From: Ramlibacter sp.
Lineage (GTDB): Bacteria > Pseudomonadota > Gammaproteobacteria > Burkholderiales > Burkholderiaceae_C
Reading direction: 5' to 3'
Assembly: GCA_019635415.1 (NCBI GenBank)
Contig: JAHBZN010000001.1
Span: 310,001-374,000, forward strand
DNA: 64,000 nucleotides
This document shows positions 1-36,590 of this stretch, piece by piece (within the stretch, counting starts at the first letter, position 1; the number at the start of each line of letters is the position of its first letter). The notes beneath the pieces were generated by a model. The model was given only the letters and a program-made list of their open reading frames with translations, did not search any database and was not told where the DNA came from. A program made the position numbers and the translations under genes.

Positions 1-1046
1 ACCTGCTGGGCAACGCCATCAAGTTCACCGCCGCGGGCAAGGTGACCTTCAGGCTGCGCTACGCGCGTGAGATGGCCACCATCGAGATCGAAGACACCGG
101 CCCGGGCCTGAGTGCGCAGGAGCTGGCCCAGATCTTCGAGCCCTTCGCGCGCGGCGAAGCGCCATCCAGTCATGCCGCGCCGGGTGCGGGCCTGGGCCTG
201 ACCATTGCCAAGATGCTCACCGACCTCATGGGGGGCGAACTGAGCGCCACGGGCCGGCCGGGCCAGGGGTCGGTGTTCCGCGTCAAGCTGTTCCTGCCGG
301 AAGTCCACAACCCGGCCCTGGGGGGCACCACGGAGCGCGCCGCGCCACTGCCGCGCCGGGGCTACGAGGGCGTGCGGCGCAAGGTACTGGTGGTCGACAA
401 CGAGGAAGCCGACCGCACGCTGCTGGTTCATCTGCTGGGACCGCTGGGCTTTGAACTGCGTACCGCCGCCAGCGGGCATGACGCGCTGGACCTGTTGGCC
501 GCCGGCTACCGGCCCGACGCCATCCTGATGGACCTGGCCATGCCGGGCATTGATGGCTGGGAAACCATCCGGCGGGTGCGGCGCCTGGAGTCGGCGTTGC
601 CTGTGGCCGCCGGGTACCCTGCAGCCCGCGTTGCCATCGTGTCGGCCAACGCCTTTGACAAGGGGCTCGACAACGACGTGGGGGTCCGGCCCGAGGACTT
701 CATTCTCAAACCCGTGCGGCACAGCGAACTGCTGGACTGGCTGGAGCGCCAGCTCGGGCTGGTCTGGCTGGAGCAGCCGGCGGCCGCCGCGCCGGTGGCC
801 GTGCCGCTGCCGGTGGGGGCGGCCCTGGTCTGGCCCGCGCGGGCGCAGGTGGCGGCGCTGCAGGAGGTGGTGCAGCTGGGGTACTACCGGGGCATCATGA
901 ACCTGCTGGAGCAGATCGAGACCGATCAACCCGAGTGCGCAGGCGTGGTGGCACAACTGCGCACGCTGGCCCGACAATTCCAGTTCGAAGCCATGGGCCG
1001 CCTGCTGGCGCCCGTGCTGGAATCCTCCGCAGCGACGCCACCATGA
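1..1046 (+). CDS. Hybrid sensor histidine kinase, C-terminal part (gene truncated by window edge)
   Basis: The reading frame is open from the first bases, so the N-terminal sensor and dimerisation domains lie outside the window. The visible part starts in the N box of a HATPase domain (LLGNAIKFT), continues through the G1 box (DTGPGLS) and G2 box (GAGLGLTIAK), and then has a receiver domain starting at KVLVVDNEEAD. The probable phospho-acceptor Asp is in LMDLAMPGIDGW and the conserved Lys in FILKPVR. About 100 residues follow without a clear family; they could be a degenerate Hpt-like tail. The TGA stop overlaps the ATG of the next gene (ATGA), so kinase and response regulator are probably translated together and work as one phosphorelay. 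The signal sensed cannot be read from this fragment. Confidence 0.9.
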   Translation, partial: LLGNAIKFTAAGKVTFRLRYAREMATIEIEDTGPGLSAQELAQIFEPFARGEAPSSHAAPGAGLGLTIAKMLTDLMGGELSATGRPGQGSVFRVKLFLPEVHNPALGGTTERAAPLPRRGYEGVRRKVLVVDNEEADRTLLVHLLGPLGFELRTAASGHDALDLLAAGYRPDAILMDLAMPGIDGWETIRRVRRLESALPVAAGYPAARVAIVSANAFDKGLDNDVGVRPEDFILKPVRHSELLDWLERQLGLVWLEQPAAAAPVAVPLPVGAALVWPARAQVAALQEVVQLGYYRGIMNLLEQIETDQPECAGVVAQLRTLARQFQFEAMGRLLAPVLESSAATPP

Positions 1047-2005
1047 ATACCAATCCCCTCGACCACACGCTGGACCGCGCCAACAGTGACGTGGTGCTGA
1101 TCGTCGACGACGTGCCCGACAACCTCTCGGTGCTGCACGACGCGCTCGACGAGTCAGGCTACACGGTACTGGTGGCCACGGGTGGCGAGGCGGCCCTGCA
1201 GCGCGCGCAGCAGGCGCTACCCGACATCGTCCTGCTTGACGCCATGATGCCCGGCATGGACGGCTTCGAGGTGGCCAAGCGCCTCAAGGCCACGCCCCAG
1301 ACGGCGCACATCCCCATCATCTTCATGACTGGCCTGACGGAGACCGAGCACCTCGTGGCGGCGCTGGACGCCGGCGGGGTGGACTATGTCACCAAGCCCA
1401 TCAAGCCCAAGGAGGTGCTGGCGCGCATGAACGTGCACATGCAGGGCGCACGCCAGGCGCGGCAGACCCGCAACGCGCTCGATGCCTTCGGCTATGCCAG
1501 CATCACCGTGCGCGCCAGCGACGGCAAGCTCATGTGGCAGACCCCCCTGGCGCGCGACTTGTTGCAGGTCTATTTCGGCACGGCCGCGCCGCAGGCCCCG
1601 CAGCCGGTGGTCGACTGGCTGCGCAGGCACCTGAAGGAGGCCGAGCAGCAGATCGAGCCGCCCCGCCTCATGGCCGAGCAGGGCGCGCGCCGGCTGACCT
1701 TCCGGCTCCACCAGCAGACGGGTGACGACGACTGGCTGATCGTCATGCGGGAGGTGTCCGACACCGCCGTGATCGAGGCCATGAGCCTGTCCTTCAAGCT
1801 CACGGCGCGCGAGGCCGAGGTGCTTTACTGGGTGGTCAAGGGCAAGATCAACCGCGATATCGGCGACATCCTGGGCGCCAGCCCGGCCACCGTGAAAAAG
1901 CACCTGGAGCGCGTGTTTGCCAAACTGGGCGTGGAGACGCGTACCTCGGCCGCCGCCATGGCGATGAACCGCATCCGCCAGCTGCATCCACAGTTCGAGT
2001 CCTAG
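1043..2005 (+). CDS. Response regulator, REC plus LuxR-type helix-turn-helix
   Basis: A 320-residue response regulator. The N-terminal receiver domain has the acidic pair in LIVDDVPDN, the phospho-acceptor Asp in VLLDAMMPGMDGF and the Lys in YVTKPIKP. A middle segment of about 100 residues is not assigned. The C-terminal LuxR/NarL HTH shows LTAREAEVLYWVVKGKIN followed by a recognition helix around ASPATVKKHLERVFAKLGV. I chose the ATG that overlaps the stop of the upstream kinase by four bases, because it gives a normal receiver N-terminus (a longer upstream extension would be Arg/Gly-rich and without homology). It is most likely the output partner of that kinase; target genes are unknown. Confidence 0.93.
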   Translation: MNTNPLDHTLDRANSDVVLIVDDVPDNLSVLHDALDESGYTVLVATGGEAALQRAQQALPDIVLLDAMMPGMDGFEVAKRLKATPQTAHIPIIFMTGLTETEHLVAALDAGGVDYVTKPIKPKEVLARMNVHMQGARQARQTRNALDAFGYASITVRASDGKLMWQTPLARDLLQVYFGTAAPQAPQPVVDWLRRHLKEAEQQIEPPRLMAEQGARRLTFRLHQQTGDDDWLIVMREVSDTAVIEAMSLSFKLTAREAEVLYWVVKGKINRDIGDILGASPATVKKHLERVFAKLGVETRTSAAAMAMNRIRQLHPQFES

Positions 2006-2014
2006 GCATCTGGG

Positions 2015-3325
2015 TCAGGCAAGCCGCAGGATCCGCTTCAGACGCTGGGGCCAGGATCGCTGCGGCTCGTCCACCAGCCGCCGCAGCGCGCTGGCGTAGT
2101 CGAGCAGGAAACCCGGCGTCCAGCTCATGGCCGTGGCGCGGCTGCGAATCGCCGAAGCGGCCCACATGTCCGGTTCGAGCAGCAGCGCCATCAGGCGCCG
2201 CCACGGCCTGGGCGAGGCCAGGGCACCCTCGAGGGCGGCGTCCAGGGCGGCCACGACCAGCGTGGAGCAATTGCGGTTCGACAGGTTGTAGGTGCTGTCC
2301 TGGCGGTACCCGGCCCAGAATGCGCGCAAGCGGCGCTCGCTGTACGTGTGTAGCGAGATCTGAACCTCCGACGGGCACCAGTCGGCCACTTCCTCGGGGT
2401 AGGACGGGAGGAAGCGACCCTCCATGTCGTTCTCGCGGCCTGAGTTCAACAGGGACAACAGGTTGTCGCCCGGCTGCCCCAGATCGCGCCCCGGGTAGTG
2501 GCTGATGTAAAGATCGGGTAGCAGTTCCAGCGACACGTGGCCCGTGGACACCGTGCCGTTGCGGGCAAATGCGACGACATAGCGGTTGATGACGGGCAGG
2601 CGTTCCACGGGTGCGCCGGCCGCGCCTTCCGGCGTCCAGATATAGAGGGTCATCGGCTTCTCGTGGCGCTGTGGCGCCGAGCCGGTGTCATTCACCAGGA
2701 TGGGGGCGTGGTCATACCAGCCTCGTCGCGAGAACACGGGCAGCAGCAGGATCGCGGCCTCTTCCTCCAGCGTGCGCAGCATCAGCCCGACCCGCAGCAG
2801 GATCCATCCGGACACCGCCAGGACCAGGCCGACGCCAACGGGCGCCATGCGTGCGGCAGACAGGGGCCAGCTGGCCAGGATCATGGCCGCCAGGGCCAGC
2901 TCCGCTGCGCCATACAGCGCCGACAATCTCCAGGCGCCCACCTTGAAGACAAAGGCCGCCGCAAAACGGTTCAGACCAACCAGCCCCATCGCCAGGCCGA
3001 CCAGGATCGCGGTCGCCACCATCCAGCCGTCGATCAGGACGGAGATCAGGATCAGGGTACCGACGGCCACGCAGGTCACCCCGTTGACGATGGTGAAGCC
3101 CCGGCGGGAGTCCGTCGGCACGCGCAGCTCTCCCAGCGCGAGTACGAGGCCCACGCCCAGCAGGCTGATCCCGATCGCGAGATAGACGCTCACGGTGAGG
3201 ATCGGGGAGACCCCCGCAATCAGTGCCGCAGCCACCGCCATCAGCAACGCCCCGGCGATCGCCAGTACATGCCATTGCGAGCGGAAGGCGGCAGGCCCGA
3301 TCAGCAGGAAAGCGATCTTCAGCAC
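2015..3325 (-). CDS. Membrane protein: HdeD-like transmembrane region fused to a papain-like (permuted NlpC/P60-type) domain
   Basis: 436 residues from a GTG start. Residues 1 to about 200 contain six or seven hydrophobic helices with the Gly/Ala/Leu character of HdeD/DUF308 proteins. The soluble C-terminal half contains a His in TGHVSLEL and, further on, a Cys in NRNCSTLVV. His before Cys is the order found in circularly permuted NlpC/P60 (LRAT/YiiX-type) cysteine hydrolases, so I infer a papain-like catalytic or degenerate domain; this is an inference from two motifs. The gene is convergent with the response-regulator gene (9 bp between stops) and 57 bp downstream of the STAS gene. There is no clear Shine-Dalgarno, so the exact start is uncertain. 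Function unknown. Confidence 0.75.
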   Translation of the reverse strand: MLKIAFLLIGPAAFRSQWHVLAIAGALLMAVAAALIAGVSPILTVSVYLAIGISLLGVGLVLALGELRVPTDSRRGFTIVNGVTCVAVGTLILISVLIDGWMVATAILVGLAMGLVGLNRFAAAFVFKVGAWRLSALYGAAELALAAMILASWPLSAARMAPVGVGLVLAVSGWILLRVGLMLRTLEEEAAILLLPVFSRRGWYDHAPILVNDTGSAPQRHEKPMTLYIWTPEGAAGAPVERLPVINRYVVAFARNGTVSTGHVSLELLPDLYISHYPGRDLGQPGDNLLSLLNSGRENDMEGRFLPSYPEEVADWCPSEVQISLHTYSERRLRAFWAGYRQDSTYNLSNRNCSTLVVAALDAALEGALASPRPWRRLMALLLEPDMWAASAIRSRATAMSWTPGFLLDYASALRRLVDEPQRSWPQRLKRILRLA

Positions 3326-3787: not shown

Positions 3788-4831
3788 TCACGGATTGACC
3801 GGCTGGTACTCGAAACTGGGGCCGGTGAGCACCGCGGGGTCGGGAATGCCCGCCATCATGGCGCGGGCCTGCCCCTTGAGCGACATCATGAGCCCGATGG
3901 CGACGTCCATCTGGTCCTGTGTCGCTTGCCCGCTGAACAGCGCGTTCAATGCGAGCAGCAGGCTGGTGTAGGTGTAGTTGAAGTTGTTGTTGGCGAAGGC
4001 CTGGGCCGAGCCGAGGGGATAGCCGGCGGCTGACGGGTTGGTGGGGACGGCGTAGACGCCGCCCGCGTCGAAGGGGATGGCTGCGCCGGTGTAGGCGTAC
4101 TGCGGCGCGGGGGGCACGGCGTGAGGCAGCCGGACGAGCCGATGCCCTTTCTGGATCTGCATGAACCGGTAGTAGTGCGCATAGCCCTTGCCGACGACCT
4201 CCTCAGGCGAGGTGGTGGTGCCCTCGCCCTGCTCGATGATGGTGTTGATGGCCTGTTGGGCCGTGGTCACGTCCACCACCACCACCGACTCCGGCATCAG
4301 GGCCGGCCCCACCTGATTGCGAGGCGGATTCACAAAGGCGCCGTTGCCCAGTACGGCAATCGCATCGGAGATCGCGGTGTAGAACTGGCCGATGGTGATG
4401 GGGGCACCCGGCGCTGCGGCGAGGCTCTTGAACTCGATCGGGTCCTCGGGCTGCTCGATGTCCAGGAAGGTCTGCAGCTGGGCCATCGAGAACGGCGCCA
4501 GGTTGACGACCAGCCCGCTTTCCACGCCGCCCGGTAGCGGTCCGGGGTAGGTGGGCATGAAGCGGGGGGTGCCCACCATCGAGGTGCCGCCCAGTGCGTT
4601 GAGCACGTTGGACGCCAGGGTCATGTGGAGCATTTCCTCGACCACCACCGACTGGAGGATGGCAGCGATCTCGGCGTTGCGCGTCGTGTCGAGCGAATAC
4701 AGCGCGTAGAGGTATACCGGGATGGTGGCGTGCTCGAGTTCGACGGCCTGCTGCAGCGCCGCGATGACGGCGGCCACGGCAGGTTGCGGGCCTTGCAGGC
4801 CCTCGATCATTGAACGTTGGAGGCGGATCAT
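3788..4831 (-). CDS. Ferritin-like protein related to the C-terminal domain of VioB/RebD (iminophenyl-pyruvate dimer synthase-type)
   Basis: 347 residues, matching the ferritin-like domain family (PF12902) found at the C-terminus of VioB and RebD/StaD, which couple two oxidised indole-pyruvate imines. Visible features are a first helix with LEHATIPVYLYALYSL (E33, H34), a second with VVVEEMLHMTLASNVL (E66xxH69, a carboxylate-bridged metal signature) and a later helix with HYYRFMQIQKG. At the place where I recall a Glu in most relatives this protein has Gln (Q223), so the metal site may be altered. The start has a good GGGGAG site at 8 bp. It follows the VioB-N-like gene by 18 bp and is the last gene of the receptor operon. 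Substrate unknown. Confidence 0.8.
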   Translation of the reverse strand: MIRLQRSMIEGLQGPQPAVAAVIAALQQAVELEHATIPVYLYALYSLDTTRNAEIAAILQSVVVEEMLHMTLASNVLNALGGTSMVGTPRFMPTYPGPLPGGVESGLVVNLAPFSMAQLQTFLDIEQPEDPIEFKSLAAAPGAPITIGQFYTAISDAIAVLGNGAFVNPPRNQVGPALMPESVVVVDVTTAQQAINTIIEQGEGTTTSPEEVVGKGYAHYYRFMQIQKGHRLVRLPHAVPPAPQYAYTGAAIPFDAGGVYAVPTNPSAAGYPLGSAQAFANNNFNYTYTSLLLALNALFSGQATQDQMDVAIGLMMSLKGQARAMMAGIPDPAVLTGPSFEYQPVNP

Positions 4832-4849
4832 GGCGAAGTCTCCCCGGGG

Positions 4850-6745
4850 CTATTGCAGGATCAGGCGACGGGCCGCGGCGGCGGCCTTGCCCCCGCGCGC
4901 AGAAGGCGCGGCGGGTGTGGCGGGCGCTCTCGCGGCGTTCCCGGGAGCGGTCGCGGCCGGAGCCGAGCGCGCGAGGGGAGGACTGCCCGGCAAGGGGTTC
5001 TTGAGCCACGACAGGATGGCGGCCCGCTTGGCGGGCGACAGGTCGCGCGTCACCGGCATCGCATTCGGGTTGGCGGGATCGAGACCGAACGCGAGCAGCA
5101 GCAGGCCGGCATGGCTCACCACCGAGGTGTAGTCACCCAGGTTCAGGAACCGGTTCATCACGGGATACAGGTTGGCGTACTGCTGGAAGATGGGTTGCAG
5201 GTCGTTCCAGGTCACCGGATGCGCGGGCTTGAAGCCACTCCACAGCAGGATGCTGACGAAATTCCACTGGTTGACCGGCCCACTGAGGGCGGGATCGGCA
5301 AAAGCCGGGCGCACGCCGTAGACCTGTCCATCGATGCCGTAGTCCTGGCCATTGTTGAACCAGCGCGGCGTGCCCGGGTCGCTGGCGTCCAGCGTCAGGA
5401 CCGCGCGCCCGTCGCTGCCTGTCTCGGCGGTGGCATTGAAGGCGAGTGCCTCGGCCGGCGTGGCCACGGGGGGACTGGGGCACACGTAGGGGAAGCCACT
5501 GCCGGGCTGGAGCTGTGACGCATCGGCCGTGAAGCCCACGCTGACCCCCGCCAGTGGTTGACCCCATTGCATCGCCAGCACCGGAACCTGCACCGAATCG
5601 CCCGGGCTCAAGCGGTAGACGAAGGTGTCGGCGCGCACGAACGCACCGCTGTCCCACTCGCTGATCGAGATGGAAGGTGGGCCCGCGAGGACCAGTGGCG
5701 CGCGAGCCACCGCCTGCAGCTGCGCGGGGCTGAGCGGCAGGGCGACGATACCCGCCGTCTGGCCGTACCACGCGGCGTTGCTCGCGTACCCGTGGCTGCC
5801 CCGGGAGGGGATGGTGCCCAGGGGCACCACGCTGCCGGCGGGCCGGCCGGGCGTGGCCGTGGGGGCGTACACGCCCAGGGTCAGGTCACCGAGGTCGTTG
5901 AGTGTGCCGCCGGGTGAGGAGGTGGACAGTGCATTGCCCAGGTCGAGGTAGATGCAGCCGGCGGTGTCGTCGACGACGCCGGCGCAGAAATTGAGCCCAC
6001 CCACTGGCGTGAAGAAATTGCCCCCGGCCGCGGCGCTGGCCATGAACTGGCGACCCATGACCAGATGCCGGGGCTCCGTGGGCGTGGCGGGGCCGATGGT
6101 GCCCACGATGCGGCCGCACATGAAGCTGGGTGAAGTGAAGTCCATGTTCAGGCCATCGACGTTGAACTTGATGGACAGCAGACCGTCCGCCGCGGCGGCT
6201 TTCAGCGCCGTGAGGAACGGCGAGGCCGAGACATCCGCCCATTGCAGGCGGGTTAGCACCGACTGGTACATCGCGCCAGCACCGATATCACCTCCCGCGC
6301 CCGAGCCGGTGGCACGGTCCCAGATGTCGGCAAAGGCGGCGGGCTCGAAGTCGCCGCGCATCAGGGTGTTGCCGTTGTCGTCGGCGATGCGCACCTCGAG
6401 GCCCCAGATTTCCGAGACGAGTTGCTGCTCGCTGTCCAGGTCCACGAGTTTGGCGGGCACCTGCCCGTCGGAGTCGGCGACGATGTATTGAAGCACCGGG
6501 TCGCTGGCCGTCACGGCGCCCGACGGCATCCAGGCTGCCGTGACGGTGCACCCGAGGAATCGCCAGGCGGCGTCACCCTGCGGGTTGAACCAGCCATTGG
6601 GGGGCACCATCTGGGCACCCTGCATCTTCTGGTAGCTGGGTTTGAACGAGGCGTTGTCAAAGTGCCCGGGGTCGTTGTTGACGGTGGATACGTTGGCCTG
6701 GAACTGGCCGGCGAAATGAAGGCGCAGGGCGTTGAGGTAGCTCAT
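4850..6745 (-). CDS. Protein resembling the N-terminal portion of VioB (chromopyrrolate-synthase family)
   Basis: 631 residues. The N-terminus reads LRLHFAGQFQANVSTVNNDP, which fits the pattern R-[LI]-H-F-x-G...N-x-x-T-x-N-x-D-P that I recall from the start of VioB. Near residue 540 it has YANLYPVMNRFLNLGD, similar to the VioB segment just before its ferritin-like domain. It therefore looks like VioB without that domain, which here is the next gene. The protein ends in an Ala/Pro/Arg-rich low-complexity tail, so the split appears real rather than a frameshift. No signal peptide was seen. The ATG overlaps the stop of the upstream membrane-protein gene (ATGA). The relation to VioB rests on remembered sequence, not a database search. 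Confidence 0.65.
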   Translation of the reverse strand: MSYLNALRLHFAGQFQANVSTVNNDPGHFDNASFKPSYQKMQGAQMVPPNGWFNPQGDAAWRFLGCTVTAAWMPSGAVTASDPVLQYIVADSDGQVPAKLVDLDSEQQLVSEIWGLEVRIADDNGNTLMRGDFEPAAFADIWDRATGSGAGGDIGAGAMYQSVLTRLQWADVSASPFLTALKAAAADGLLSIKFNVDGLNMDFTSPSFMCGRIVGTIGPATPTEPRHLVMGRQFMASAAAGGNFFTPVGGLNFCAGVVDDTAGCIYLDLGNALSTSSPGGTLNDLGDLTLGVYAPTATPGRPAGSVVPLGTIPSRGSHGYASNAAWYGQTAGIVALPLSPAQLQAVARAPLVLAGPPSISISEWDSGAFVRADTFVYRLSPGDSVQVPVLAMQWGQPLAGVSVGFTADASQLQPGSGFPYVCPSPPVATPAEALAFNATAETGSDGRAVLTLDASDPGTPRWFNNGQDYGIDGQVYGVRPAFADPALSGPVNQWNFVSILLWSGFKPAHPVTWNDLQPIFQQYANLYPVMNRFLNLGDYTSVVSHAGLLLLAFGLDPANPNAMPVTRDLSPAKRAAILSWLKNPLPGSPPLARSAPAATAPGNAARAPATPAAPSARGGKAAAAARRLILQ

Positions 6746-7455
6746 GTCGGTGTCTCGCTCGAGTCGGGGGTGGAGTGATGCGGCAGGCGGCCCACCACCC
6801 ATCGGTGGAGGAGCCAGGTCAGTGCGGGAAGCGCCATCGTGGCCAGCAAGGTGACGGCCATGCCCGGTTCGTTGGTGCCGAACCAGGCGCTGGCCGCGTA
6901 CAGCGCCGCCACGCCGCAGGACGACAGGGCCGCCATCAGCATCGCCGGCAGCACCGGCACCCGCCAGACACCGGCCAGCAGGGCGCTCATTTCCGCCAGC
7001 ACCGGCAGGGCGCGCGCCGCCACAATCCACCACAGCGCCCGGTGGCGTGCGCGCTCGCGTACGCGGTCCCAGAGTGCGGCGCCCACCCAGCGGCGCAGCT
7101 GGGGCTCCGGCACCAGGCGGCCCAGGGCGTAACCGAAGGCGAACGACAGGGTCAGGCCGAGTGCCAGCGCGCCACCGCCCCAGGCCGGTCCGAGCGTCCA
7201 GCACAAGGCCATGCCCACCACGCTGCTTGGCACGGGCAGCAGCACGTCGGCCACCAGCAGGGCCACGCCCAGTGTCGCGATCCAGACCGCATGGTCGGCG
7301 TAGCCGATCCAGTGCGGGGCGGCGCGGTCCATGGCCTCGCCCCACAAAGCGAAGGGGATCAGGATGCACAGCAGGACGGCCAGCAGGGCGGCCGTCATCC
7401 GCAGCCACGGCCCGAGGCGGCGCGGGGAAGCGGGCCAGGTCGGTTCCGGTGTCAT
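6742..7455 (-). CDS. VTT/DedA-type inner-membrane protein
   Basis: 237 residues with about five hydrophobic segments and the VTT (SNARE-associated, DedA/TVP38) core: LLVADVLLPVPSSVVGMAL followed by a Gly-rich helix and FGYALGRLVPEP. Members of this superfamily act in membrane lipid handling or solute transport, mostly undefined. It sits inside an operon: its ATG overlaps the stop of the TonB-dependent receptor gene by one base, and its stop overlaps the ATG of the VioB-N-like gene. That coupling suggests it works with the receptor or with the product of the two downstream enzymes, for example at the inner membrane. I cannot tell import from export. Confidence 0.82.
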   Translation of the reverse strand: MTPEPTWPASPRRLGPWLRMTAALLAVLLCILIPFALWGEAMDRAAPHWIGYADHAVWIATLGVALLVADVLLPVPSSVVGMALCWTLGPAWGGGALALGLTLSFAFGYALGRLVPEPQLRRWVGAALWDRVRERARHRALWWIVAARALPVLAEMSALLAGVWRVPVLPAMLMAALSSCGVAALYAASAWFGTNEPGMAVTLLATMALPALTWLLHRWVVGRLPHHSTPDSSETPT

Positions 7456-9386
7456 CACAGGCTCCAGTTCAGGGCCAGGTGCAGGCGTCGCGCCGGCTGT
7501 GGCGTGCCAATGCTTTCTGCGCCGCGGCTGCCGGCCAGGTTGTCGATGGCCAGGGTCGCCATGGCCGCGCCCCAGGGCATGCGCGCCACGACGTCCAGGG
7601 TGTTCATGGCCGGCAACTCCTGATCGCCAGTCGGGATGGACGAGTCCAGGCGGCGCCCGATGTGCCGGGCCATCAATGTGAACTCGCGGCGGCTCCCCCA
7701 GGGCAGGCTGAACCGCGCGCTCCACTGGCTGCGGGGGCGCTGGCGCAGTGCAGCGCCCCCTGACGGATCGCGCACCTTCATCCAGGCGCCGTCCAGTTGC
7801 AGCCGCCATCCCGCGGCCGACGCGTGGCGGGTACGCCACTCGATGCCGTCGGCATGGATGCGGGCGCGGTTGACCAGTTGAGGAGGCGGGCCCGCGTCGA
7901 AGTCGATCAGGTCCCGGTAGCGGGCGCTGAACAGGGTCACGCGCAGGGGCCAGGGCGAGGCCGCCGAACTGGCGTAGTAAAGCTCGCGGTGCGTGGCGCG
8001 CTCGGTCCGCAGTTGCGGATTGCCGACCAGGGGATGGCCCAGCGCATAGAAACTGGGCGGCTTGGTGGCTCGCGAGATCGAGGCGCCCCACTGGCCCCCG
8101 CCTTCGAGCGAACGCTGGACCGACAGCATCGGATGGGTGGCTGGGTCGCCGTCGTCCGGGTGGTCGTGGCGCAGACCGGCTTGCAGCGTCCAGGCGCCCC
8201 ACGGGTAACGGGCTTCGGCCAGCAGGCTGGTGGTGCGCCGCGTCCGGCTGAAGGCCGCCGGCAAGGCAAGGGCGCCGAAGTGGATGCGGCTGTCCAGGGT
8301 GCCGCTCTCGCGCTGGTGCTCAACCCCCAGGGTGAGCAGCAGGTCGCGGTCCACCGGCGGCATCCACAGGGCCTGGAGGTCATGGTGGCGGTAGTCGGTG
8401 TGCGTGTCCATGGCCGGCAGGCCCGCAGGGTCGCGCAGGCCTGGCGCGACGCCGGGGTTGGCTTCCGTGCCGTCGCGTGACAGCGTCGTGGCCTGCAACT
8501 CGATGCGGCCCGCGCCGGCGGTGTTGAGGGCAGCGCGCGCCGAGAGCTGACGGCTGTCGGCGCGGCGTGACTCCAGCGTGCGACGCACCGCCCGTTGGGT
8601 CCCACCGCTGTCATCGGGGAACGCCAGGTTGAGGCTGCTCGACAGCCGGGCGGAGAGGCTCACCGCACCTTGCCGGTCCAGCCCTTGCTCCCACGCGCCA
8701 TTGACGCTCTGGGTGCGATTGAATCCCCGGTCAGGGTCCCCCTCCTCACGATGGCTGATGCTGGCGCGCAGGTGTTCGCGTGCCAGGCCGGCCTGCGCCG
8801 CACGCAGCCCGGTGCCGCCAGTGGCCACCCCCCCGTAGCCCGTGCCGGGCGCCCGCCGCGTGAAGATGTGGATCACCCCCGCCAAGGCCTGTGCGTGCAC
8901 CACGCTCACGTTGCCGCGCACGATCTCGATGCGCTCCACGTCGCCGGTGGACAGCGTGTTCAGGTCGACGGCGCTGCCGCGTGAAGAAAGAGGGTCGTTC
9001 TGCCGGACATGGTCGACCAGCACGACGACGTGGCTCGGGTCGGCACCGCGCAGGTAGAGCGAGCCATAGCCACCGCTGCGCGGGCTGCGGTCCACCACCA
9101 CGCCGGCCTGCAGGGCCAGGGCCTGGGCCACGCTCAGGTCGCCCAGGGCCGCAAGGTCGTCACGGGTCAGCACCGTCACATGCTGGCTGGCCGCTGCGGC
9201 CGTGATCGGCAACGCGCTGGCGCTGATGCGCACTTCGGGCAACGCCTTGGCGGTCTGGGCGCCCGCCGCGGGCAGGCCCGCAAGGATCAACCACGCCGGG
9301 CTGCGGGCCCAAGGCCCTGCCAGCCACGGCGTGTGACCACGATGAGGGGCCCTCCAGCCCCCTTCCCCCTTTGGTGTCTGCTTCAA
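7455..9386 (-). CDS. TonB-dependent outer-membrane receptor, BtuB-like
   Basis: 643 residues. A hydrophobic N-terminal segment ending in GLPAAGAQT looks like a signal peptide. The plug domain (roughly residues 55-165) contains SASALPITAAAASQHVTVLT, LYLRGADPSHVVVLVD, NDPLSS and VERIEIVRGNVS; the rest is an aromatic-rich beta-barrel ending in LHLALNWSL, a typical outer-membrane terminal strand. The plug resembles the BtuB/vitamin B12 group, but I found no cobalamin riboswitch upstream. It is the first gene of a four-gene operon with the VTT protein and the two VioB-like proteins, so its ligand may be a substrate or product of those enzymes. Start codon choice is only moderately secure. Confidence 0.88.
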   Translation of the reverse strand: MKQTPKGEGGWRAPHRGHTPWLAGPWARSPAWLILAGLPAAGAQTAKALPEVRISASALPITAAAASQHVTVLTRDDLAALGDLSVAQALALQAGVVVDRSPRSGGYGSLYLRGADPSHVVVLVDHVRQNDPLSSRGSAVDLNTLSTGDVERIEIVRGNVSVVHAQALAGVIHIFTRRAPGTGYGGVATGGTGLRAAQAGLAREHLRASISHREEGDPDRGFNRTQSVNGAWEQGLDRQGAVSLSARLSSSLNLAFPDDSGGTQRAVRRTLESRRADSRQLSARAALNTAGAGRIELQATTLSRDGTEANPGVAPGLRDPAGLPAMDTHTDYRHHDLQALWMPPVDRDLLLTLGVEHQRESGTLDSRIHFGALALPAAFSRTRRTTSLLAEARYPWGAWTLQAGLRHDHPDDGDPATHPMLSVQRSLEGGGQWGASISRATKPPSFYALGHPLVGNPQLRTERATHRELYYASSAASPWPLRVTLFSARYRDLIDFDAGPPPQLVNRARIHADGIEWRTRHASAAGWRLQLDGAWMKVRDPSGGAALRQRPRSQWSARFSLPWGSRREFTLMARHIGRRLDSSIPTGDQELPAMNTLDVVARMPWGAAMATLAIDNLAGSRGAESIGTPQPARRLHLALNWSL

Positions 9387-9820
9387 CGGCAGCTCCAGTT
9401 ACCTTGTGTGACGTCTTGGATTGTCTGGAGCGCCTCGGGGCGCATCAACCTGTCAAAGCTGACAGGCGAGGGCCGGGGTTGCGCCGGGTGGCCGTGCCGA
9501 ATCGTGACCGGGCAAGGTCGAAAAATCCCTGCCGAATCAAGGACTTGAGTACGGGAAAGGGTGGTGATCCGGGGCTGCGCGAATTACCAGCCGGGGGCCT
9601 CGTCGGTGGGGCCTAGTCGCAAAAAAATCACACAAAAGTACCGGGCCTTCCCGCCGGCCCGGGTGGGCCCCGGGGCGTCGCAGCGTACGCCATGCGGCGT
9701 ATTTCCCGGGCTTGGGGTTCTCCCTAGGATCAAACCGTCCGCATCAGAGGCGTTCCGCAAGGGGCGGGGATGGGGCGATTTCAGGTTTGTCTCAGGTTTT
9801 GTCTCACTGGAGAAGCACAC
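9387..9820. other. Divergent intergenic region between the TonB-receptor operon and urtA
   Basis: 434 bp without a convincing gene. It must carry promoters for both operons. Visible features are an inverted repeat TACGCC-ATGC-GGCGTA at 9686-9701, GC-rich palindromic runs around 9655-9675, and a short direct repeat TCAGGTTT(T)GTC at 9781-9803 just before the urtA ribosome binding site. I looked for a sigma-54 TGGCAC-N5-TTGC motif before urtA and for a cobalamin box before the receptor and saw neither. Confidence 0.6.
9686..9701. promoter_or_regulatory. Inverted repeat upstream of urtA, candidate operator
   Basis: TACGCC and GGCGTA form perfect 6-bp arms around ATGC. It lies 120 bp before the urtA start, a reasonable place for an activator or repressor site, but no second copy was found in the window and the binding protein is unknown. 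Confidence 0.3.
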
Positions 9821-25796: not shown

Positions 25797-28700
25797 ATGT
25801 TTGCCATTTTCGGACGTTTTCTAAGACGCGGTTTCGCGTGCACAGGGCTAGTATTGCTTTGTATCGCCATGATGCCGGGCCATGCTGAGGCCACGACGAT
25901 TAAAAGTTACCCCAATACCAGCCTTACGGCATGTCCGAGCGGCGAGACCCTCAAGTATTTCTTTAACAGTTGGTCTGGCATTGGCGACACCCCTGTGGTA
26001 CGGGGAGCTTCGTGGTGTGCGGCGGCTGCGACCGCAGTTGCCTATGCCAATACCATTGATACCGTGCAGTGGCACAAGCCCTATTTGCTGGAGAGTTGCA
26101 CGGCGGGGGTATCTTGGTCGTATTCCCATGCCAATCAGGACGGATCTCGTTTCTATAGTCCAGCGTATAGGGACATCACGTTGGTGTGCGAGATTCAGCC
26201 CTATAACATTTCACTGTCTGGCCCAACGCAAGCCAAGCCGCTCGATGCGAACGGGAGTGTTCTGGAGTTGGTCGCCACGGTGACGCAAAACGGCTCTGCT
26301 GCTCCGGGTGTCGCTGTCGGGGTCACCTTTCAAGCGGGCGCGGGAGGGCATGTTGCTGCGTTGTCGGGTGCCACTGACGCGAATGGTCGAGTGGTGCTGA
26401 ACTACAGCCCCCCGCAAACACTCATGGGTGAATCCAAGGTCGATCTGGTTCGCGCTGATTGCGGTGGTTGCGCGGCGTCGGCGAACTTGGCGATTCAAGT
26501 ACAGGGAACCCCGCTTTCTCCGGCCACTCCACAGACCTGTCCCGCCAGCCCTGGTCTGGCAACTGGGCACCCCATCCTGCCGGCCACAGGGACCAAAATC
26601 CTGGCCGAGCGCGACTGGCAAGACCTGGGGGCGCATCCATTGACCCTGGTCCGGCATTACGCGAGTCGCTGGAGCGTTCAACCCGAAGCAGGCCTGGGTT
26701 TGACCTGGAGTCACAACCACGCCCATCGAGTCCTTGGCGTCGGGAGTCCGGCCCGCCCCAGCCGTACGGTCATTTTCGGCGACGGTAGCGTGAGTCAGTT
26801 TGTCAATACCGCACCCGTTGCCTATGTCGATCCCAATGCGGGCGGTGTGTGGCAATGTGCGCCCAACACTTGGTGTACTCCCGCCCAACCCGTTGTTGAT
26901 CCCAATCTGTATCCCCCGGCTTGGACGGCTTCTGGCAGCCTCGACTCCATGAGCGATACGGCGGAGGGCATTGTGTTGCATCGAGCCAGCGACGACAGCA
27001 CCTGGCTTTTCGACAAAACGACCGGACAGGCCCTGCGCGCGCAGCAGCGCAATGGTTGGTCGCTCCAGTACGCGTACGCAGGGGGCAGATTGAGCCAGGT
27101 GACCAACGCCTTCGGCCGCAGCCTGCAATTCGCGTACAACGCCCAAGGCCAACTGATCAGCGTCACCACGCCCGACGGGCAGGTCATCAGCTACCAATTT
27201 GATAGCGCATCGCGGTTGATTGGCGCGGGCTATCCGGACAATTCATCCAAAACCTACGTTTACGAAAACGCTGGCTGGCCTCAGTACGTGACGGGCATTG
27301 TGGACGAGCAGGGCGGTCGTTATTCCACCTACAACTACGACTCCCAAGGTCGTGCCGTGTTGAGCGAGCTGGCAGGTGGCGCAGACCGCACAGCCGTCGC
27401 ATACGGCGCAGGCGCCTCCGCCGTGACCGACGCGCTGGGCATGACGCGTAGCTATGAGTATCAGGCCATGAGCGGAAGCGCCAGTGGCATGGATACCCGA
27501 CAAGCCAGTGCGATGGGTGCAGACGGAAACAGCATAGCTGCCCAAGTGTTTGATCCCAACAGCTTGCTCCAGAGCCAAACCGACTTCCTAGGCATCACCA
27601 CCCTGTTCACCTGGGACACTGCGCGGCGCCTGAAGACCAGTGAAACCCGAGCCGCCAGCCGCCCCGAAGCCCAGACCGTGCAGACCCAGTGGTACCCCGT
27701 GTTCCGCCTGCCCGTGCTGGTGACCGAGGCCGGGCGCAGCACCGCCTACACCTATGACGCGCTGGGCAACAAACTCAGCGAAACCGTCACTGACCTGTCG
27801 AGCGGGCAGGCCCGCAGCTGGGCCTGGACCTACACTCCTCAGGGCCTGGTGGCCAGCCACACCGACCCGCGCGGCGCCGTGTGGAGCTACACCTACGACG
27901 CCCAGGGCAACCGCCTGAGCCAGACCAACCCCCTGGGCCACGTCACCGCCTGGCAATACGACGGCGCCGGCCGCCCCACCCAGCAGACCGAGCCCAACGG
28001 CCTCGTCACCACCTACAGCTACGACCTGCGCGGACGCCTCACCAGCGCCAGCCGCGGTGATGAAACCAGCACCTACACCTGGACCCCCACCGGCCTGCTG
28101 GCCAGCGCCAGCCTGCCCAGCGGCCAGGCCACCAGCTACCAGTACGACGCCGCCCAGCGCCTCATTGGCGCCACCGACAACCGCGGCAACAGCGTGGCCT
28201 ACACCCTGGATGCCATGGGCAACCGCATCCGCGAGGAAGTGCGCGACGCCGGCGGCGCCATCGCCCAGGCCACCAGCCGCGCCATCAACAGCCTGAACCG
28301 CGTCAGCGCCATCAGCGGCGCCGTCGGCCAGACCACCCAGCTGGGCTATGACGCCAACGGCGAAGCCATCAGCCAGACCGACCCGCTGAACCAGACCACC
28401 CGCCAGAGCCTGGACGCGCTGCGCCGTCCCGTGGCCACCACCTTGCCGGACAACGCCGCCGCCACCCAGGCCTGGAACGCGCTGGACCAGCTCACCCAGG
28501 TCACCGACCCCAAGGGCGTGGCCACCCAGTACAGCCGCAACGCCTTTGGCGAAGTGGTGAGCGAAACCAGCCCCGACATCGGCACCCAGAGCTACCAGCG
28601 CGACGCCGCCGGTGACATCGCGGCCATCACCGACGCCCGGGGCATCACCACCCAGATCACCCGCGACACCTTGGGCCGGCCCGTGCAGGTCACCCGCGGG

Positions 28701-30788
28701 GCCCAGCACCAGACCGTCTACACCTGGGACCAGGGCCAGACCGGCTACCTGAGCCAGATCGAAGACCCGTCGGGCGTCACCAGCTACACCCGCGATGCGC
28801 TGGGCCGCATCCTCAGCAAAGCCCAGACCGTCAACGACAACCCCGCCAACCCGGCCAGCTTCACCACCCGCTACAGCTACCAGGGCGGCGAACTGGCCAG
28901 CATCGAGTACCCCAGCGGGCTCAAGCTGTTCTACCAGCGCAGCGCCGCCGGCCAGATCACCGGCCTGGCCACCCAGCTGCCCGGCGGCACCGTCAAGAAG
29001 CCCAAGCCCGTCGTGCCCTTCGTCAGCAACCTCACCCACACCGCCCTGGGCCAGCCCAAGGCCTGGAGCTGGGCCAATGGCGACAGCGCCAGCCGCAGCT
29101 TTGACAGCGACGGGCGCATGACGGCCAATGAATTTGCCAGCTATGGCTACGACGCCGCCAGCCGCATCACCAGCCTGACCCAGAACCTGTGGGCCAGCGC
29201 CGCCACAACGGGCACGGGCACGGGCACAGCCACCGGCACCGTCACCCTCTACACCACCCCTTTGAGCTGGACCATCGGCTACGACAGCCGCAACCGCCTC
29301 ACCAGCTTCAACCGCAACGGCAGCGAGGCCAGCTACACCTACGACGCCAACAGCAACCGCCTCACCGCCATCGACAAAACCACCAGCGACACCGACCTGG
29401 ACGGTGACTTTGACGACAGCGACTTCTCCAAATCCACCGCCCAGGCCCTGAACGTGGACCCCGCCAGCAACAAGCTGCTGGGCTTCACCCAGACCCTCAC
29501 CAAGGTCAGGGGCACCAAGACCGTCAGCACCGTGAGCAGCAACGTCGCCTACAGCCTGGACGCGGCCGCCAACCTCACCAGCGACGGCCTGCGCGGCTTT
29601 GACTACGACAACGCCAACCGCCTGAGCCAGGTCAGCATCGTCAAAGACGGCGAAGCCGCCCAAGTGCGCTACCTGCACAACGCGCTGGGCCAAAGAACCT
29701 TCAAGAGCGAACCGGAGGCCCAGCAAACCCTGCCCAGCGAAACCGAGCTGGGCCAGGACTTCATCAGCTGGCTCAAGAGCAACTTCAAGTGGCTGTTTGC
29801 CCAGGCCCAGGCCAACACCAGCATCGGCACCGGCTACACCTTTGCCGACGGCCACCTGCCCGAATGGGCCGTGCTGGGTGAATACGACAACGGCTCAGCC
29901 GCCGGCAAGGGAAGAAGCGAGTACCTGTGGCTACCCACCGACGACGGCCAAGCCATCCCGGTCGGGATGTTCCGCAACGGCAAATTCTTCGCCATCCACA
30001 CCGATCACCTGGGCACGCCCCGGCTGATGACCAACGAGGCTAACCAACCCGTGTGGCAGTGGCCGTACAGCGCCTTTGGCAACAACAAGCCCACGGGCAT
30101 CCTGAAAGCCACGCCCAACCCCAAGGCAGCGATCACCAACCAGCCGGTGCTACTGAAAGCGACCGCACCCACCGAGATGAACCTGCGGTTCCCGGGGCAA
30201 TATGCGGACGATGAGGCGGGCAGTTTCTACAACTACCAGCGCAGCTACCTTGCCAGTCAGGGGAGGTACACGCAGAATGATCCGATTGGGTTGGCGGGGG
30301 GCATTAATACCTATGGATATGTGGGCGGGAATCCGCTGATGTACACGGATCCCACTGGGGAGTTCATCTTCGTACCCGGTGCAATTGTCGGGGGCATTGT
30401 TGGCGGGGTTACTGCCGCTGCAACGGGGCAGTCGATATTGGGAGGTGCAATCAGCGGCGCTATCGGAGGAGCATTTCCCGGCGGCGGTATTCTCATCAAT
30501 GCTGCTATCGGTGCCGCAGCAGGCGTCGCTGGATACCTGGCTGATCCAGGGTGCCCAGATGGGATGGCACCAACCTTCGGCGCGATGCTCCAAAACGCAG
30601 CGCTTGGTGGACTAGGCGGCGCAGTTGGAAGGGGTATTGGTTTTGGCAATGGCCTGCAAGCAGTCAGACGAGGCGCAGGCGGCGCGAGTGCCGTCAGCCG
30701 CAGCTACTATGCTCAAGCGAGCGGCGGTGCAATTTATGGTGCATCTTTGACTTACGCGGTACCGTCGCCAAACTGTACGTGCCGTTGA
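25797..30788 (+). CDS. Rhs/YD-repeat protein with variable C-terminal tip
   Basis: 1663 residues. A signal peptide (residues 1-31, ending GHAEA) is followed by a Cys-containing region, an Ig-like (Big-1-type) domain around residues 140-240, the Rhs N-terminal cap (GHPILPATGTKILAERDW), then many YD repeats (for example YTYDALGNKLSET, YTYDAQGNRLSQT) and the Rhs core ending at DPIGLAGGINTYGYVGGNPL and YTDPTGEF near residue 1520. The last ~140 residues are a Gly/Ala-rich hydrophobic tip with no recognised toxin motif. The middle is GC-rich, the two ends are clearly less so, as expected for tip exchange. Rhs proteins are contact-dependent effectors or surface proteins; the next gene may be its immunity protein. 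Confidence 0.92.
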   Translation: MFAIFGRFLRRGFACTGLVLLCIAMMPGHAEATTIKSYPNTSLTACPSGETLKYFFNSWSGIGDTPVVRGASWCAAAATAVAYANTIDTVQWHKPYLLESCTAGVSWSYSHANQDGSRFYSPAYRDITLVCEIQPYNISLSGPTQAKPLDANGSVLELVATVTQNGSAAPGVAVGVTFQAGAGGHVAALSGATDANGRVVLNYSPPQTLMGESKVDLVRADCGGCAASANLAIQVQGTPLSPATPQTCPASPGLATGHPILPATGTKILAERDWQDLGAHPLTLVRHYASRWSVQPEAGLGLTWSHNHAHRVLGVGSPARPSRTVIFGDGSVSQFVNTAPVAYVDPNAGGVWQCAPNTWCTPAQPVVDPNLYPPAWTASGSLDSMSDTAEGIVLHRASDDSTWLFDKTTGQALRAQQRNGWSLQYAYAGGRLSQVTNAFGRSLQFAYNAQGQLISVTTPDGQVISYQFDSASRLIGAGYPDNSSKTYVYENAGWPQYVTGIVDEQGGRYSTYNYDSQGRAVLSELAGGADRTAVAYGAGASAVTDALGMTRSYEYQAMSGSASGMDTRQASAMGADGNSIAAQVFDPNSLLQSQTDFLGITTLFTWDTARRLKTSETRAASRPEAQTVQTQWYPVFRLPVLVTEAGRSTAYTYDALGNKLSETVTDLSSGQARSWAWTYTPQGLVASHTDPRGAVWSYTYDAQGNRLSQTNPLGHVTAWQYDGAGRPTQQTEPNGLVTTYSYDLRGRLTSASRGDETSTYTWTPTGLLASASLPSGQATSYQYDAAQRLIGATDNRGNSVAYTLDAMGNRIREEVRDAGGAIAQATSRAINSLNRVSAISGAVGQTTQLGYDANGEAISQTDPLNQTTRQSLDALRRPVATTLPDNAAATQAWNALDQLTQVTDPKGVATQYSRNAFGEVVSETSPDIGTQSYQRDAAGDIAAITDARGITTQITRDTLGRPVQVTRGAQHQTVYTWDQGQTGYLSQIEDPSGVTSYTRDALGRILSKAQTVNDNPANPASFTTRYSYQGGELASIEYPSGLKLFYQRSAAGQITGLATQLPGGTVKKPKPVVPFVSNLTHTALGQPKAWSWANGDSASRSFDSDGRMTANEFASYGYDAASRITSLTQNLWASAATTGTGTGTATGTVTLYTTPLSWTIGYDSRNRLTSFNRNGSEASYTYDANSNRLTAIDKTTSDTDLDGDFDDSDFSKSTAQALNVDPASNKLLGFTQTLTKVRGTKTVSTVSSNVAYSLDAAANLTSDGLRGFDYDNANRLSQVSIVKDGEAAQVRYLHNALGQRTFKSEPEAQQTLPSETELGQDFISWLKSNFKWLFAQAQANTSIGTGYTFADGHLPEWAVLGEYDNGSAAGKGRSEYLWLPTDDGQAIPVGMFRNGKFFAIHTDHLGTPRLMTNEANQPVWQWPYSAFGNNKPTGILKATPNPKAAITNQPVLLKATAPTEMNLRFPGQYADDEAGSFYNYQRSYLASQGRYTQNDPIGLAGGINTYGYVGGNPLMYTDPTGEFIFVPGAIVGGIVGGVTAAATGQSILGGAISGAIGGAFPGGGILINAAIGAAAGVAGYLADPGCPDGMAPTFGAMLQNAALGGLGGAVGRGIGFGNGLQAVRRGAGGASAVSRSYYAQASGGAIYGASLTYAVPSPNCTCR

Positions 30789-34770: not shown

Positions 34771-34937
34771 CTGGAAAAGGGGGGCGGGGATCGTCAGGAT
34801 TGAGGGTCCTTCCTTGAGAGCAGTCTACTTGAGGCGGGACGGCGTTCAGCTTGCCCCCTGAATTCCAGTGACATATCTCCATGGCGCCCCGCCCCTGCCC
34901 GCCGAATAATCAAAGCCGGTTTTCACAAGGAGGCAAC

Positions 34938-36590
34938 ATGGCAGGCAAGAACAAATCCCCAGCGGCTGCACAGTGCGACATCGCCATCGTGGGGGGCGGT
35001 GTGTCGGGCGTCTACAGCGCCTGGCGGCTCAAGGCCCGGTACCCGCGCAAGAAGATCGTGCTGATCGAGGGTTCGGACCACATCGGCGGGCGGCTGCTGT
35101 CGGTGGTGCCGCCGGGCATTCCCAACATGGTGGCCGAGCTGGGCGGCATGCGCATCCTGCCCAAGACCCAGCCACTGATCGTGGCCCTGCTCAAGGAGCT
35201 GAACAAAGCGCTGCCCAAGAGCCAGGCCATCGAGACCTACCCGTTCCCGGTGGACCAGCCGCAAAACATTGCGTTTTTGCGCGGCACGCATCTGCGCCTG
35301 TCGGATTTCACGCAAGACCCCGACAAGGTGCCTTACCGGCTCTCGTTTCTGGAGCGGGGCAGCAGCTCGGGCGTGATCATGGTCAACGCGATCGAGCAGA
35401 TCGTGCCCGGCATCACGGCCAAGGGCCTGACCAACGAACAGCGCCACAGGATGGCGCGCGAGGCCAGCTTCGATGGCCAGCCGCTGTACCAGCTCGGCTT
35501 CTGGAACCTGCTGTTGCGCGTGATCACGGGCGAGGCCTACCAGCTGGGGCTGGACGCTGGCGGTTATGAGAGCGTGGTGTCCAACTGGAACGCGGCCGAC
35601 GCGATTCCCTGGTTCCTGTCGGACTTTGGCATCGACCCCGAGTATTTCGGGTTCAAGAAGGGCTTTCAGCAGGTGCCGCTGTCGCTGGCCGAGCTGTTCA
35701 GGAAGCAGGGCGGCGAGATCCGGCTCGAGACGCGGTTGCAGGGCTTCGAGCACAACGGCGGCCGATTCACGCTGACGCTGGGCGGCGGTGCCCGGCTGGT
35801 GGCCGACACGCTGATCCTGGCCATGCCGCGCCGCTCGCTCGATCTGGTGGCCCCCAGCGCCCCCTTGTTGCGGCAAGCCCCCGTGGCCAGGCTGATTGCC
35901 AGCGTCACGCCGCAGCCGTTGTTCAAGCTGTTCACTACCTATGCCAACCCGTGGTGGCGCGCCGCGGGTTACTACAACAACGCGAAGAAAGAGTTCGTGC
36001 CTGTGGAAAGCGGCCGCACCGTCACCAGCCTGCCGGTGCGCCAGACCTACTACTGGCCCACCTCGGAGGGCAAGCCCGCCCAAAGCGGTCCAGCCATGCT
36101 GATGGCCAGCTATGACGACGGCTCCAACATCGGCTTCTGGGACGGCCTGCGCCCGCAGCGGCGGCAGGCCTGGCGCCAGGGGCTGGAAGTGCCCGTCCCG
36201 CGCCATCCGTTCGAGCCCACGGCCACGCCGACCCTTCTCAAGAGCGGCAAGAAGAGTGGCGCTGCGGGGGCCCCCAGCACCTGGAGCCGGTATCAGGCGA
36301 GTGACGAGATGGTGGACGAAGTGGCGCGCCAGCTGGGCAGCATCCACGGCCTGAGCTACTCGCCCACCGTGGAGCAGGCCGCTTTCCGGGACTGGGGCGA
36401 CGACCCGTTTGGCGGCGGCTGGAACAGCTGGAACATCGGCGTCAAGAGCTGGGAGGTCAAGGACCAGATCACCCAGCCGCTGGCCAGCGTGCCGCTGTTC
36501 ATCTGCGGCGAGGCCTACTCCAGCGCCCAGGGCTGGGTCGAGGGCGCGCTCGAGACGGCCGACATCATGCTCAAGAAGCTCCTCAGGTAG
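34938..36590 (+). CDS. FAD-dependent amine oxidase
   Basis: 550 residues. The N-terminal FAD-binding motif is IAIVGGGVSGVYSAWRL, followed by GSDHIGGRLLSV and ELGGMRILPK; near the C-terminus FICGEAYSSAQGWVEGALETA is the typical FAD-contact segment of flavin amine oxidases. The middle has KLFTTYANPWWRAAGYY, resembling L-amino-acid (including tryptophan) oxidases such as VioA more than classical MAO by my recollection. There is no signal peptide. AAGGAGG lies just before the chosen ATG, which settles the start. It overlaps the malic-enzyme stop by eight bases on the other strand. Substrate unknown. Confidence 0.85.
   Translation: MAGKNKSPAAAQCDIAIVGGGVSGVYSAWRLKARYPRKKIVLIEGSDHIGGRLLSVVPPGIPNMVAELGGMRILPKTQPLIVALLKELNKALPKSQAIETYPFPVDQPQNIAFLRGTHLRLSDFTQDPDKVPYRLSFLERGSSSGVIMVNAIEQIVPGITAKGLTNEQRHRMAREASFDGQPLYQLGFWNLLLRVITGEAYQLGLDAGGYESVVSNWNAADAIPWFLSDFGIDPEYFGFKKGFQQVPLSLAELFRKQGGEIRLETRLQGFEHNGGRFTLTLGGGARLVADTLILAMPRRSLDLVAPSAPLLRQAPVARLIASVTPQPLFKLFTTYANPWWRAAGYYNNAKKEFVPVESGRTVTSLPVRQTYYWPTSEGKPAQSGPAMLMASYDDGSNIGFWDGLRPQRRQAWRQGLEVPVPRHPFEPTATPTLLKSGKKSGAAGAPSTWSRYQASDEMVDEVARQLGSIHGLSYSPTVEQAAFRDWGDDPFGGGWNSWNIGVKSWEVKDQITQPLASVPLFICGEAYSSAQGWVEGALETADIMLKKLLR

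Follow-up and report, generated by a model that had tools for sequence, protein, structure and literature searches.

Why should a VioB-like enzyme be divided between two genes, and what does it do beside an outer-membrane receptor? The question is raised by a locus of Ramlibacter sp. that lies in a stretch of 64,000 nucleotides, here called the window (NCBI GenBank assembly GCA_019635415.1, contig JAHBZN010000001.1, positions 310,001 to 374,000 of the forward strand). At 3788-9386 of the window, four minus-strand genes encode, in the order in which they are read, a TonB-dependent receptor, a VTT (DedA-like) membrane protein, a 631-residue protein resembling the N-terminal part of VioB (VioBN) and a 347-residue ferritin-like protein. 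The best protein match (99%) is to a Ramlibacter MAG (metagenome-assembled genome). With a probability of roughly 0.5, we read the last two as the chains of a VioB/RebD-type iron oxidase that would couple oxidised amino-acid imines, its product being carried by the linked VTT protein and receptor. The close packing of the genes claimed in the original prediction is confirmed on the sequence: the receptor and VTT genes overlap by 1 base (TGATG), the VTT and VioBN genes overlap by 4 bases (ATGA), and an 18-bp gap at 4832-4849 on the same strand, containing a ribosome-binding-like GGGGAG, precedes the ferritin-like gene.

The two chains correspond to the two parts of VioB

The 631-residue protein (4850-6745, minus strand) matched no Pfam or NCBIfam family, a PDB sequence search with it returned nothing useful, and a hydrophobicity scan found no hydrophobic stretch in it. 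At least 1504 homologues were obtained from the 7998 candidates that shared the most words with it, which were the only ones scored. When a profile of the family (67 of its 78 rows) was compared with 118 VioB-family rows cut at residue 600, the two aligned over 555 collinear columns at Prob 99.6 and an E-value of 1.6e-23, which is rough because it comes from one hhalign comparison. The controls of this comparison gave Prob 0.5 for the C-terminal part of VioB and Prob 0.1 for reversed columns. The reference VioB (L056; L and G numbers denote loci and genomes) was fetched via TIGR04492 with 1746.7 bits and is flanked by open reading frames (ORFs) that we read as vioA and vioC. Its relatives comprised 213 proteins, the best 120 of which were used as listed, and two shorter than 900 residues were dropped to leave the 118 rows.

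The agreement extends to single residues and to predicted structure. At 48 positions, conservation reaches at least 80% both in the 631-residue family (78 rows) and in the VioB family (38 of the 118 rows); R8, F11, G13, T21, M530, M563, P564 and R567 are conserved at 100% in all of these rows, and H10 at 100% in the former and 92% in the latter. The VioB-type N-terminal pattern and Y-P-x-M segment that had first drawn attention to the protein are real, as it contains the R-x-H-F-x-G motif, YPVM at 527-530 and a later M...MPxTR block. AlphaFold2 models were obtained with pLDDT values of 76.5 for the 631-residue protein and 81.0 for VioB, and their predicted secondary structures agreed at 77% of 504 aligned positions, compared with 40-45% in eight shifted controls; positions were mapped via P0123, which is 82% identical to the modelled VioB. 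Structure searches with both models matched Ig-like pieces and no clear solved relative over the full length. A profile search against VioB had been named as the check on the proposal, and it found the two proteins related: judged by profiles and predicted structures, the 631-residue protein is homologous to the whole N-terminal part of VioB.

The 347-residue protein (3788-4831, minus strand) carries a PF12902 domain (200.6 bits, cut-off 22.3) and matches the ferritin-like part of VioB in BLASTP at 6e-11, which together with the profile match bears out a split VioB-like pair. Its residues E33, E66, H69, E126, E203 and H219, and likewise Y40 and Y151, do not vary across all 41 split-family rows and all 27 VioB-family rows compared; the latter were sampled from the 118, and the former left out hits aligned over fewer than 250 residues as well as L003, a duplicate of the window's own locus. 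In ferritin-like enzymes, a di-iron site usually consists of four Glu and two His in such an order, and the six residues probably hold a di-iron centre. The PF12902 ferritin-like protein 3hl1 shares with the 347-residue protein the domain and, in the alignment, the E, E-x-x-H, E and QGEG positions, and differs in scoring only 44.4 bits; PMC9705886 gives its source as Caulobacter.

A second PF12902 protein, of 603 residues and with a Cys-rich C-terminal stretch, is encoded in L002 at 463-2274 (minus strand; near 398218 of G000:C1) and is followed by an ORF at 2-466 (minus strand), which looks like a DUF692/MNIO enzyme gene; the Cys-rich protein is possibly an MNIO substrate.

The pair is conserved as a unit

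One genome scan with alignment yielded 35 loci with the pair; it used two short peptide patterns, so relatives were missed. The two genes are split neighbours in 30 loci and fused in four (L051-L054, single chains of 888-958 residues), and in one (L055) the first gene is truncated. Many of the genomes are MAGs, and record and tree labels assign the pair to the Pseudomonadota, Bacteroidota, Verrucomicrobiota, Acidobacteriota, Myxococcota, Actinomycetota, Planctomycetota, Chlorobiota and Cyanobacteriota. The same constant pairing was seen on plasmids, where an annotated 'ferritin-like protein' directly follows the first gene in 8 of 8 records. In the fusion of L053, the match to the VioB model runs across the junction (1.5e-11).

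A tree of 68 ferritin-like domains separates the split family from the VioB/cyanobacterial group by a 100/100 branch. Within the split family the four fusions form one nested clade, and fusion therefore looks secondary there; a second copy from L053 is a long row whose placement is unsure. On the strength of this separate clade and of a failed score for the VioB equivalog model TIGR04492, the split pair is not VioB, in agreement with the earlier statement that the locus is 'not violacein itself'. By the same sequence comparisons, the two genes represent a two-gene VioB-like family distinct from VioB.

Several loci depart from the simple arrangement. In L055 (7905-9186), the first gene is reduced to about 80 residues and stands immediately in front of an intact ferritin-like gene, and a relative of the PQQ-propeller gene of L036 follows. 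Two tandem VioB-like pairs of different type are present per array in L030 (4486-7592 and 7953-11002) and L043 (3963-7594 and 7626-10987), and the second-type pair groups with Acidobacteriota and Myxococcota copies.

Receptor and VTT genes accompany the pair in a subset of loci

The receptor gene (7455-9386, minus strand; 643 residues, TTG start with GGAG upstream) encodes Pfam Plug (65.3 bits) and barrel (76 bits) domains. Its best NCBIfam model is the B12 receptor model TIGR01779, at 136.1 of 599.7 bits, and there are siderophore-type side matches too; because the score lies below the curated cut-off, the protein is not assigned to the B12 receptors. It thus shares with BtuB-type receptors the Plug, the barrel and the best model, and differs from them in its low score and in that no Rfam family, such as the cobalamin riboswitch, was matched in the window. 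The VTT gene (6742-7455, minus strand) encodes 237 residues with four hydrophobic stretches and a PF09335 match of 41.1 bits (cut-off 33.9); the frame given to the Pfam and NCBIfam scans carried two extra N-terminal residues (6742-7461). DedA/VTT proteins, with which it shares PF09335, are regarded in PMC10127716 as flippases or scramblases of lipids; the paper also describes acidic and basic residues of the re-entrant helices as features of undecaprenyl-phosphate flippases.

The second condition that could have refuted the proposal, a lack of joint conservation of the genes, did not apply either, although conservation of all four is narrower than stated. Receptor and VTT genes stand before the pair in the window, in the genus mate G001 and in 5 of the 35 loci (L021, L030, L034, L036 and L043), so that the full set is restricted, while the enzyme pair by itself was present in all 35 loci and all 8 plasmid records. 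The four genes follow one another without others between them in the window and G001; in the five other loci further genes intervene, including a second enzyme pair, 38-43% identical to that of the window, between VTT and the first pair in L030 and L043. L036 has a second ferritin-like gene in its array. When the receptor alone was searched in 369 genomes of the class (E<=1e-60, at most three scored candidates per genome), one other genome exceeded 55% identity (G986, 58%), and the next three reached 31-33%. The stretch of G986 has the order receptor, VTT, a protein with a signal-peptide-like start, VioBN (38%) and ferritin-like protein (43%). A VTT search in 399 genomes of the order passed E<=1e-10 only in the genome itself and in one other at 31% identity. 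In the samples searched, receptor relatives above 55% identity and VTT relatives above 50% were seen only alongside a VioB-like pair.

A VTT gene of 31-35% identity lies at L108 4020-6973 (G105), close to a PQQ-propeller-like match, in an 8.5 kb stretch with no match to the VioB-like pair.

In some other lineages the pair lies beside ebo or amino-acid-oxidase-type genes

Because some listed genes (c15, c25 and the beginning of c6) appear to be in the wrong frame, receptor, VTT, ABM-glyoxalase, ebo and Lod-type genes were counted from stop-to-stop frames, neighbours being scored at E<=1e-5 and 40% of query length. The commonest neighbour is an ABM plus glyoxalase protein, found beside the pair in 16 of 35 loci (L021-L024, L026-L034, L037, L038 and L043; assigned by Pfam for L021, L026 and L031 and by BLAST for the rest). 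Genes of the ebo cluster adjoin the pair in five loci: relatives of all six L028 genes are present in L028, L029, L031 and L038, and EboE in L053. In L028, the EboA domain (156.7 bits, cut-off 50) and EboE (407.9, cut-off 250) pass, whereas the EboA family model (174 of 320) and EboC (73.7 of 250) fail; EboD and EboF owe their names to PF01761 and PF01663, and EboB to its position only. Flavin-amine-oxidase-like genes stand beside the pair in 3 of 35 loci (L042 by Pfam, L041 and L045 by clustering, L041 having no NCBIfam model match), LodA/GoxA-like genes in three (L042, L045 and L046) and LodB/GoxB-like genes in five (L040, L042, L045, L046 and L051), with the GoxA and GoxB models under their cut-offs in L042 (450.4 of 750 and 222.1 of 400).

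The plasmid records gave a similar picture. An annotated ebo cluster follows the pair in 4 of 8 (three Mycetohabitans and Aureibacter), and TatD and 3-dehydroquinate-synthase genes precede it on a Gloeothece plasmid, which brings the ebo-linked pairs to 5 of 8. Two plasmids of Azospirillum B510 and one of A. oryzae showed no annotated ebo gene within 10 kb of the pair in a plasmid gene table that is incomplete; on pAB510b an ebo locus lies about 410 kb away. At the level of whole genomes, EboE was found in 17 of 35 pair genomes. Five of the 149 relatives of the window genome have it as well, none of these five being among the three relatives that match the pair.

For the cluster EboA-F of Nostoc, Klicki and others proposed that ebo makes a lipid carrier aiding the movement of the scytonemin monomer to the periplasm (PMC6282210). 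A term search of the ebo papers examined found neither VioB nor ferritin named, and a literature search joining ebo with ferritin-like or VioB terms returned no relevant paper linking them. The flanking of a split VioB-like pair by ebo metabolite-traffic genes, seen in several phyla, is new here. It goes beyond the original prediction, as do the links to amino-acid-oxidase and ABM-glyoxalase genes and an oxidase gene 25 kb from the array, described below.

Two further neighbours were recorded. A protein of about 330 residues with a signal-peptide-like start and conserved Cys is encoded near the pair in L030 (3498-4505), L031 (11018-11989), L034, L043 and L105 (9625-10512); it matched nothing in Pfam or NCBIfam and nothing convincing in the PDB. 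L050 (523-2652) encodes a protein with APH and HopA1 Pfam domains near the pair, with a 26% identical relative at L042 682-1806; domains of these types occur in peptide-natural-product clusters.

A proposed two-chain oxidase with linked transport, and its alternatives

VioB (iminophenyl-pyruvate dimer synthase) and the chromopyrrolic acid synthases RebD and StaD have the same two homologous regions in the same order, N-terminal region first and PF12902 region second, and VioB and its listed relatives have the six Glu/His positions in common with the window chain (the comparison was made on the VioB side only). They differ from the window in being one chain of about 1000 residues rather than two genes 18 bp apart and in falling into a separate clade, and the window array has no tryptophan oxidase, VioC, VioD or VioE. 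VioB joins two amino-acid units in the making of the purple pigment violacein, and coupling of two indole-3-pyruvate imines is a trait of the family. On the preferred reading, the two window chains would bind each other to form one cytosolic iron oxidase, which would couple oxidised amino-acid imines to a dimeric, presumably aromatic product. The VTT protein might then help to carry this product across the inner membrane and the TonB-dependent receptor across the outer membrane, with the four genes probably transcribed as one operon. Since relatives of the pair co-occur in nine phyla and lie beside ebo in several lineages, the pair likely makes a dimeric aromatic compound that neighbouring gene products are predicted to move; and because it lies in several other lineages beside ebo or amino-acid-oxidase-type genes, receptor and VTT may be one among several ways of transporting a single kind of product and may stand in for ebo. 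The original suggestion that an aromatic or metal-binding compound is taken up or used at the cell surface stays conjectural: the receptor scores below the curated B12-receptor cut-off, and the window shows no Fur-box-like site. A more sweeping version of our reading, to which we give tentative credence well short of even, is that widespread two-subunit VioB-like di-iron oxidases make dimeric aromatic compounds in at least nine phyla and feed a subset of ebo clusters, and that the receptor and a VTT protein of lipid-scramblase type took over ebo transport in Ramlibacter and Lysobacterales.

A possible source of imines is an L-amino-acid oxidase gene at 34881-36590 (plus strand), outside the array and about 25 kb from it, between ORFs resembling acyltransferase and malic enzyme genes. 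Its product matches the ancestral enzyme 8jhe_A at 791.9 bits, is 67% identical to that of the oxidase gene which immediately precedes the pair in Hymenobacter (L042), and has a 96% copy in the genus mate G001. Three of 35 pair genomes have a relative above 55% identity, as do 4 of 149 relatives of the window genome (G000, G001, the violacein-gene carrier G110, and G121). The gene was first assumed to be the partner of the pair; because it is unmatched in Ramlibacter WS9, which has the array, this was lowered to the possibility that it supplies imines to the pair.

Several observations weigh against the coupling and transport scheme. The array itself holds no amino-acid oxidase, the window oxidase is present in two relatives without the pair (G110 and G121), and amino-acid-oxidase-type neighbours are a minority, at 4 of 35 loci or 6 of 35 when loci with only a LodB/GoxB-like gene are counted. 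The strong match of the 631-residue family to VioB arose through the addition of divergent relatives, the single-sequence BLASTP (E 0.022) and the first shallow profile (E 0.0085, Prob 4.7) having been too weak to decide. TIGR04492 gave 27.6 bits on the ferritin-like chain (cut-off 1250) and did not list the 631-residue chain, and the other fusions match the VioB model poorly (L052 0.0012, L054 0.019, L051 0.2). VioB and its kin are described in print as heme proteins, VioB with catalase activity (PMC9705886, PMC10851217), a description that by itself does not predict a di-iron site. The ebo genes occur independently of the pair, as only 5 of 47 EboE plasmid records are pair records and no pair was seen at the four of these loci inspected (H9, H10, H22 and H33). 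In the window genome G000, where receptor and VTT stand instead, EboE, EboF and the ABM-glyoxalase protein were unmatched with one query each, the ebo search there covering EboE by family model and EboF by one protein query. EboE was found in 0 of 7 receptor-VTT carriers (G588, G597, G601, G603, G610, G000 and G001), whereas 17 of the 30 remaining pair genomes have it (Fisher p 0.009), a contrast that is a hint only because related genomes were counted singly, many are drafts or MAGs, and the eighth carrier, G986, was left out. Lastly, TonB-dependent receptors normally import, so that an export role would be unusual.

This habit of the receptors also favours a scheme in which receptor and VTT import an external aromatic compound that the pair oxidises or cleaves. 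The folds of the ABM-glyoxalase neighbour are used by monooxygenases and ring-cleaving enzymes, and L036 has PQQ-propeller and lipocalin genes, both of which would suit breakdown. We nevertheless regard it as unlikely: VioB, RebD and StaD, the characterised relatives, are biosynthetic, the four-gene array has no further degradation gene, and the pair lies beside ebo clusters, whose one studied role is to move a made precursor outwards (PMC6282210).

The ferritin-like fold, the six invariant ligand-type residues and the siderophore-type side matches of the receptor would also fit iron or metal handling: the receptor would recognise a metal complex, iron would be stored, released or oxidised by the ferritin-like protein, and the VioB-like chain would serve as a scaffold. 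The true ferritin model PF00210 stays under its cut-off on the 347-residue protein (17.1 bits, cut-off 24.5), a scan of the window that allowed up to 3 mismatches showed no Fur-box-like site, and no iron-uptake gene is among the neighbour groups that were annotated, which are part of the total. The VioB-like chain is, moreover, about as conserved as the ferritin-like chain, and metal handling appears quite improbable.

Protein maturation is suggested by the LodA/GoxA- and LodB/GoxB-like genes that adjoin the pair in L042, L045 and L046 and on two Mycetohabitans plasmids: the aromatic cofactor of a partner protein would be built or cross-linked by the pair, much as LodB/GoxB act on the quinoproteins LodA/GoxA. 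A family-less protein with, by eye, a signal-peptide-like start lies between the VTT and enzyme genes in L030, L034, L043 and L105, and PF12902 genes near lodA/lodB are already reported, for five fungal cases, in PMC4417212. Against this, the window array has no such partner gene, 32 of 35 loci lack a LodA/GoxA-like gene, and the kin of VioB act on small molecules, so we give maturation little chance. That receptor and VTT are chance neighbours of the pair is hardly credible: 30 of 35 pair loci lack them in the stretch examined (some stretches end at a contig end), but the genes overlap, receptor and VTT precede the pair in Ramlibacter, Lysobacter and other Lysobacterales, and in the samples searched their close relatives appear only with it.

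Surroundings of the array in the window

Between the receptor gene and the divergent plus-strand genes upstream of it lies a terminator-like hairpin at 9641-9662 (minus strand), which is weak, as the consensus scan found 1 hairpin where 0.4 were expected. A consensus scan found no sigma-70-like promoter upstream of the array. The plus-strand ORFs from 9770 onwards are presumably urea-ABC-transporter genes. Downstream and on the same strand as the array are a STAS protein gene (3667-3383) and, adjoining it at 2015-3325 (minus strand), a gene for a 436-residue protein with hydrophobic-looking stretches and a weak Lnb_N match. Further away, 25797-30788 encodes a 1663-residue protein with YD/RHS-like repeats, judged by eye.

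Significance

PMC9705886 describes VioB-type enzymes as without a structure and calls their catalytic properties largely unknown. With the halves as separate, smaller proteins, each can be made and mutated alone. The gene link of a dimerising-type oxidase with ebo, or here with a receptor and a VTT protein, allows a concrete guess at the kind of cargo, and so bears on what ebo clusters may move outside cyanobacteria and on how VioB-type enzymes work.

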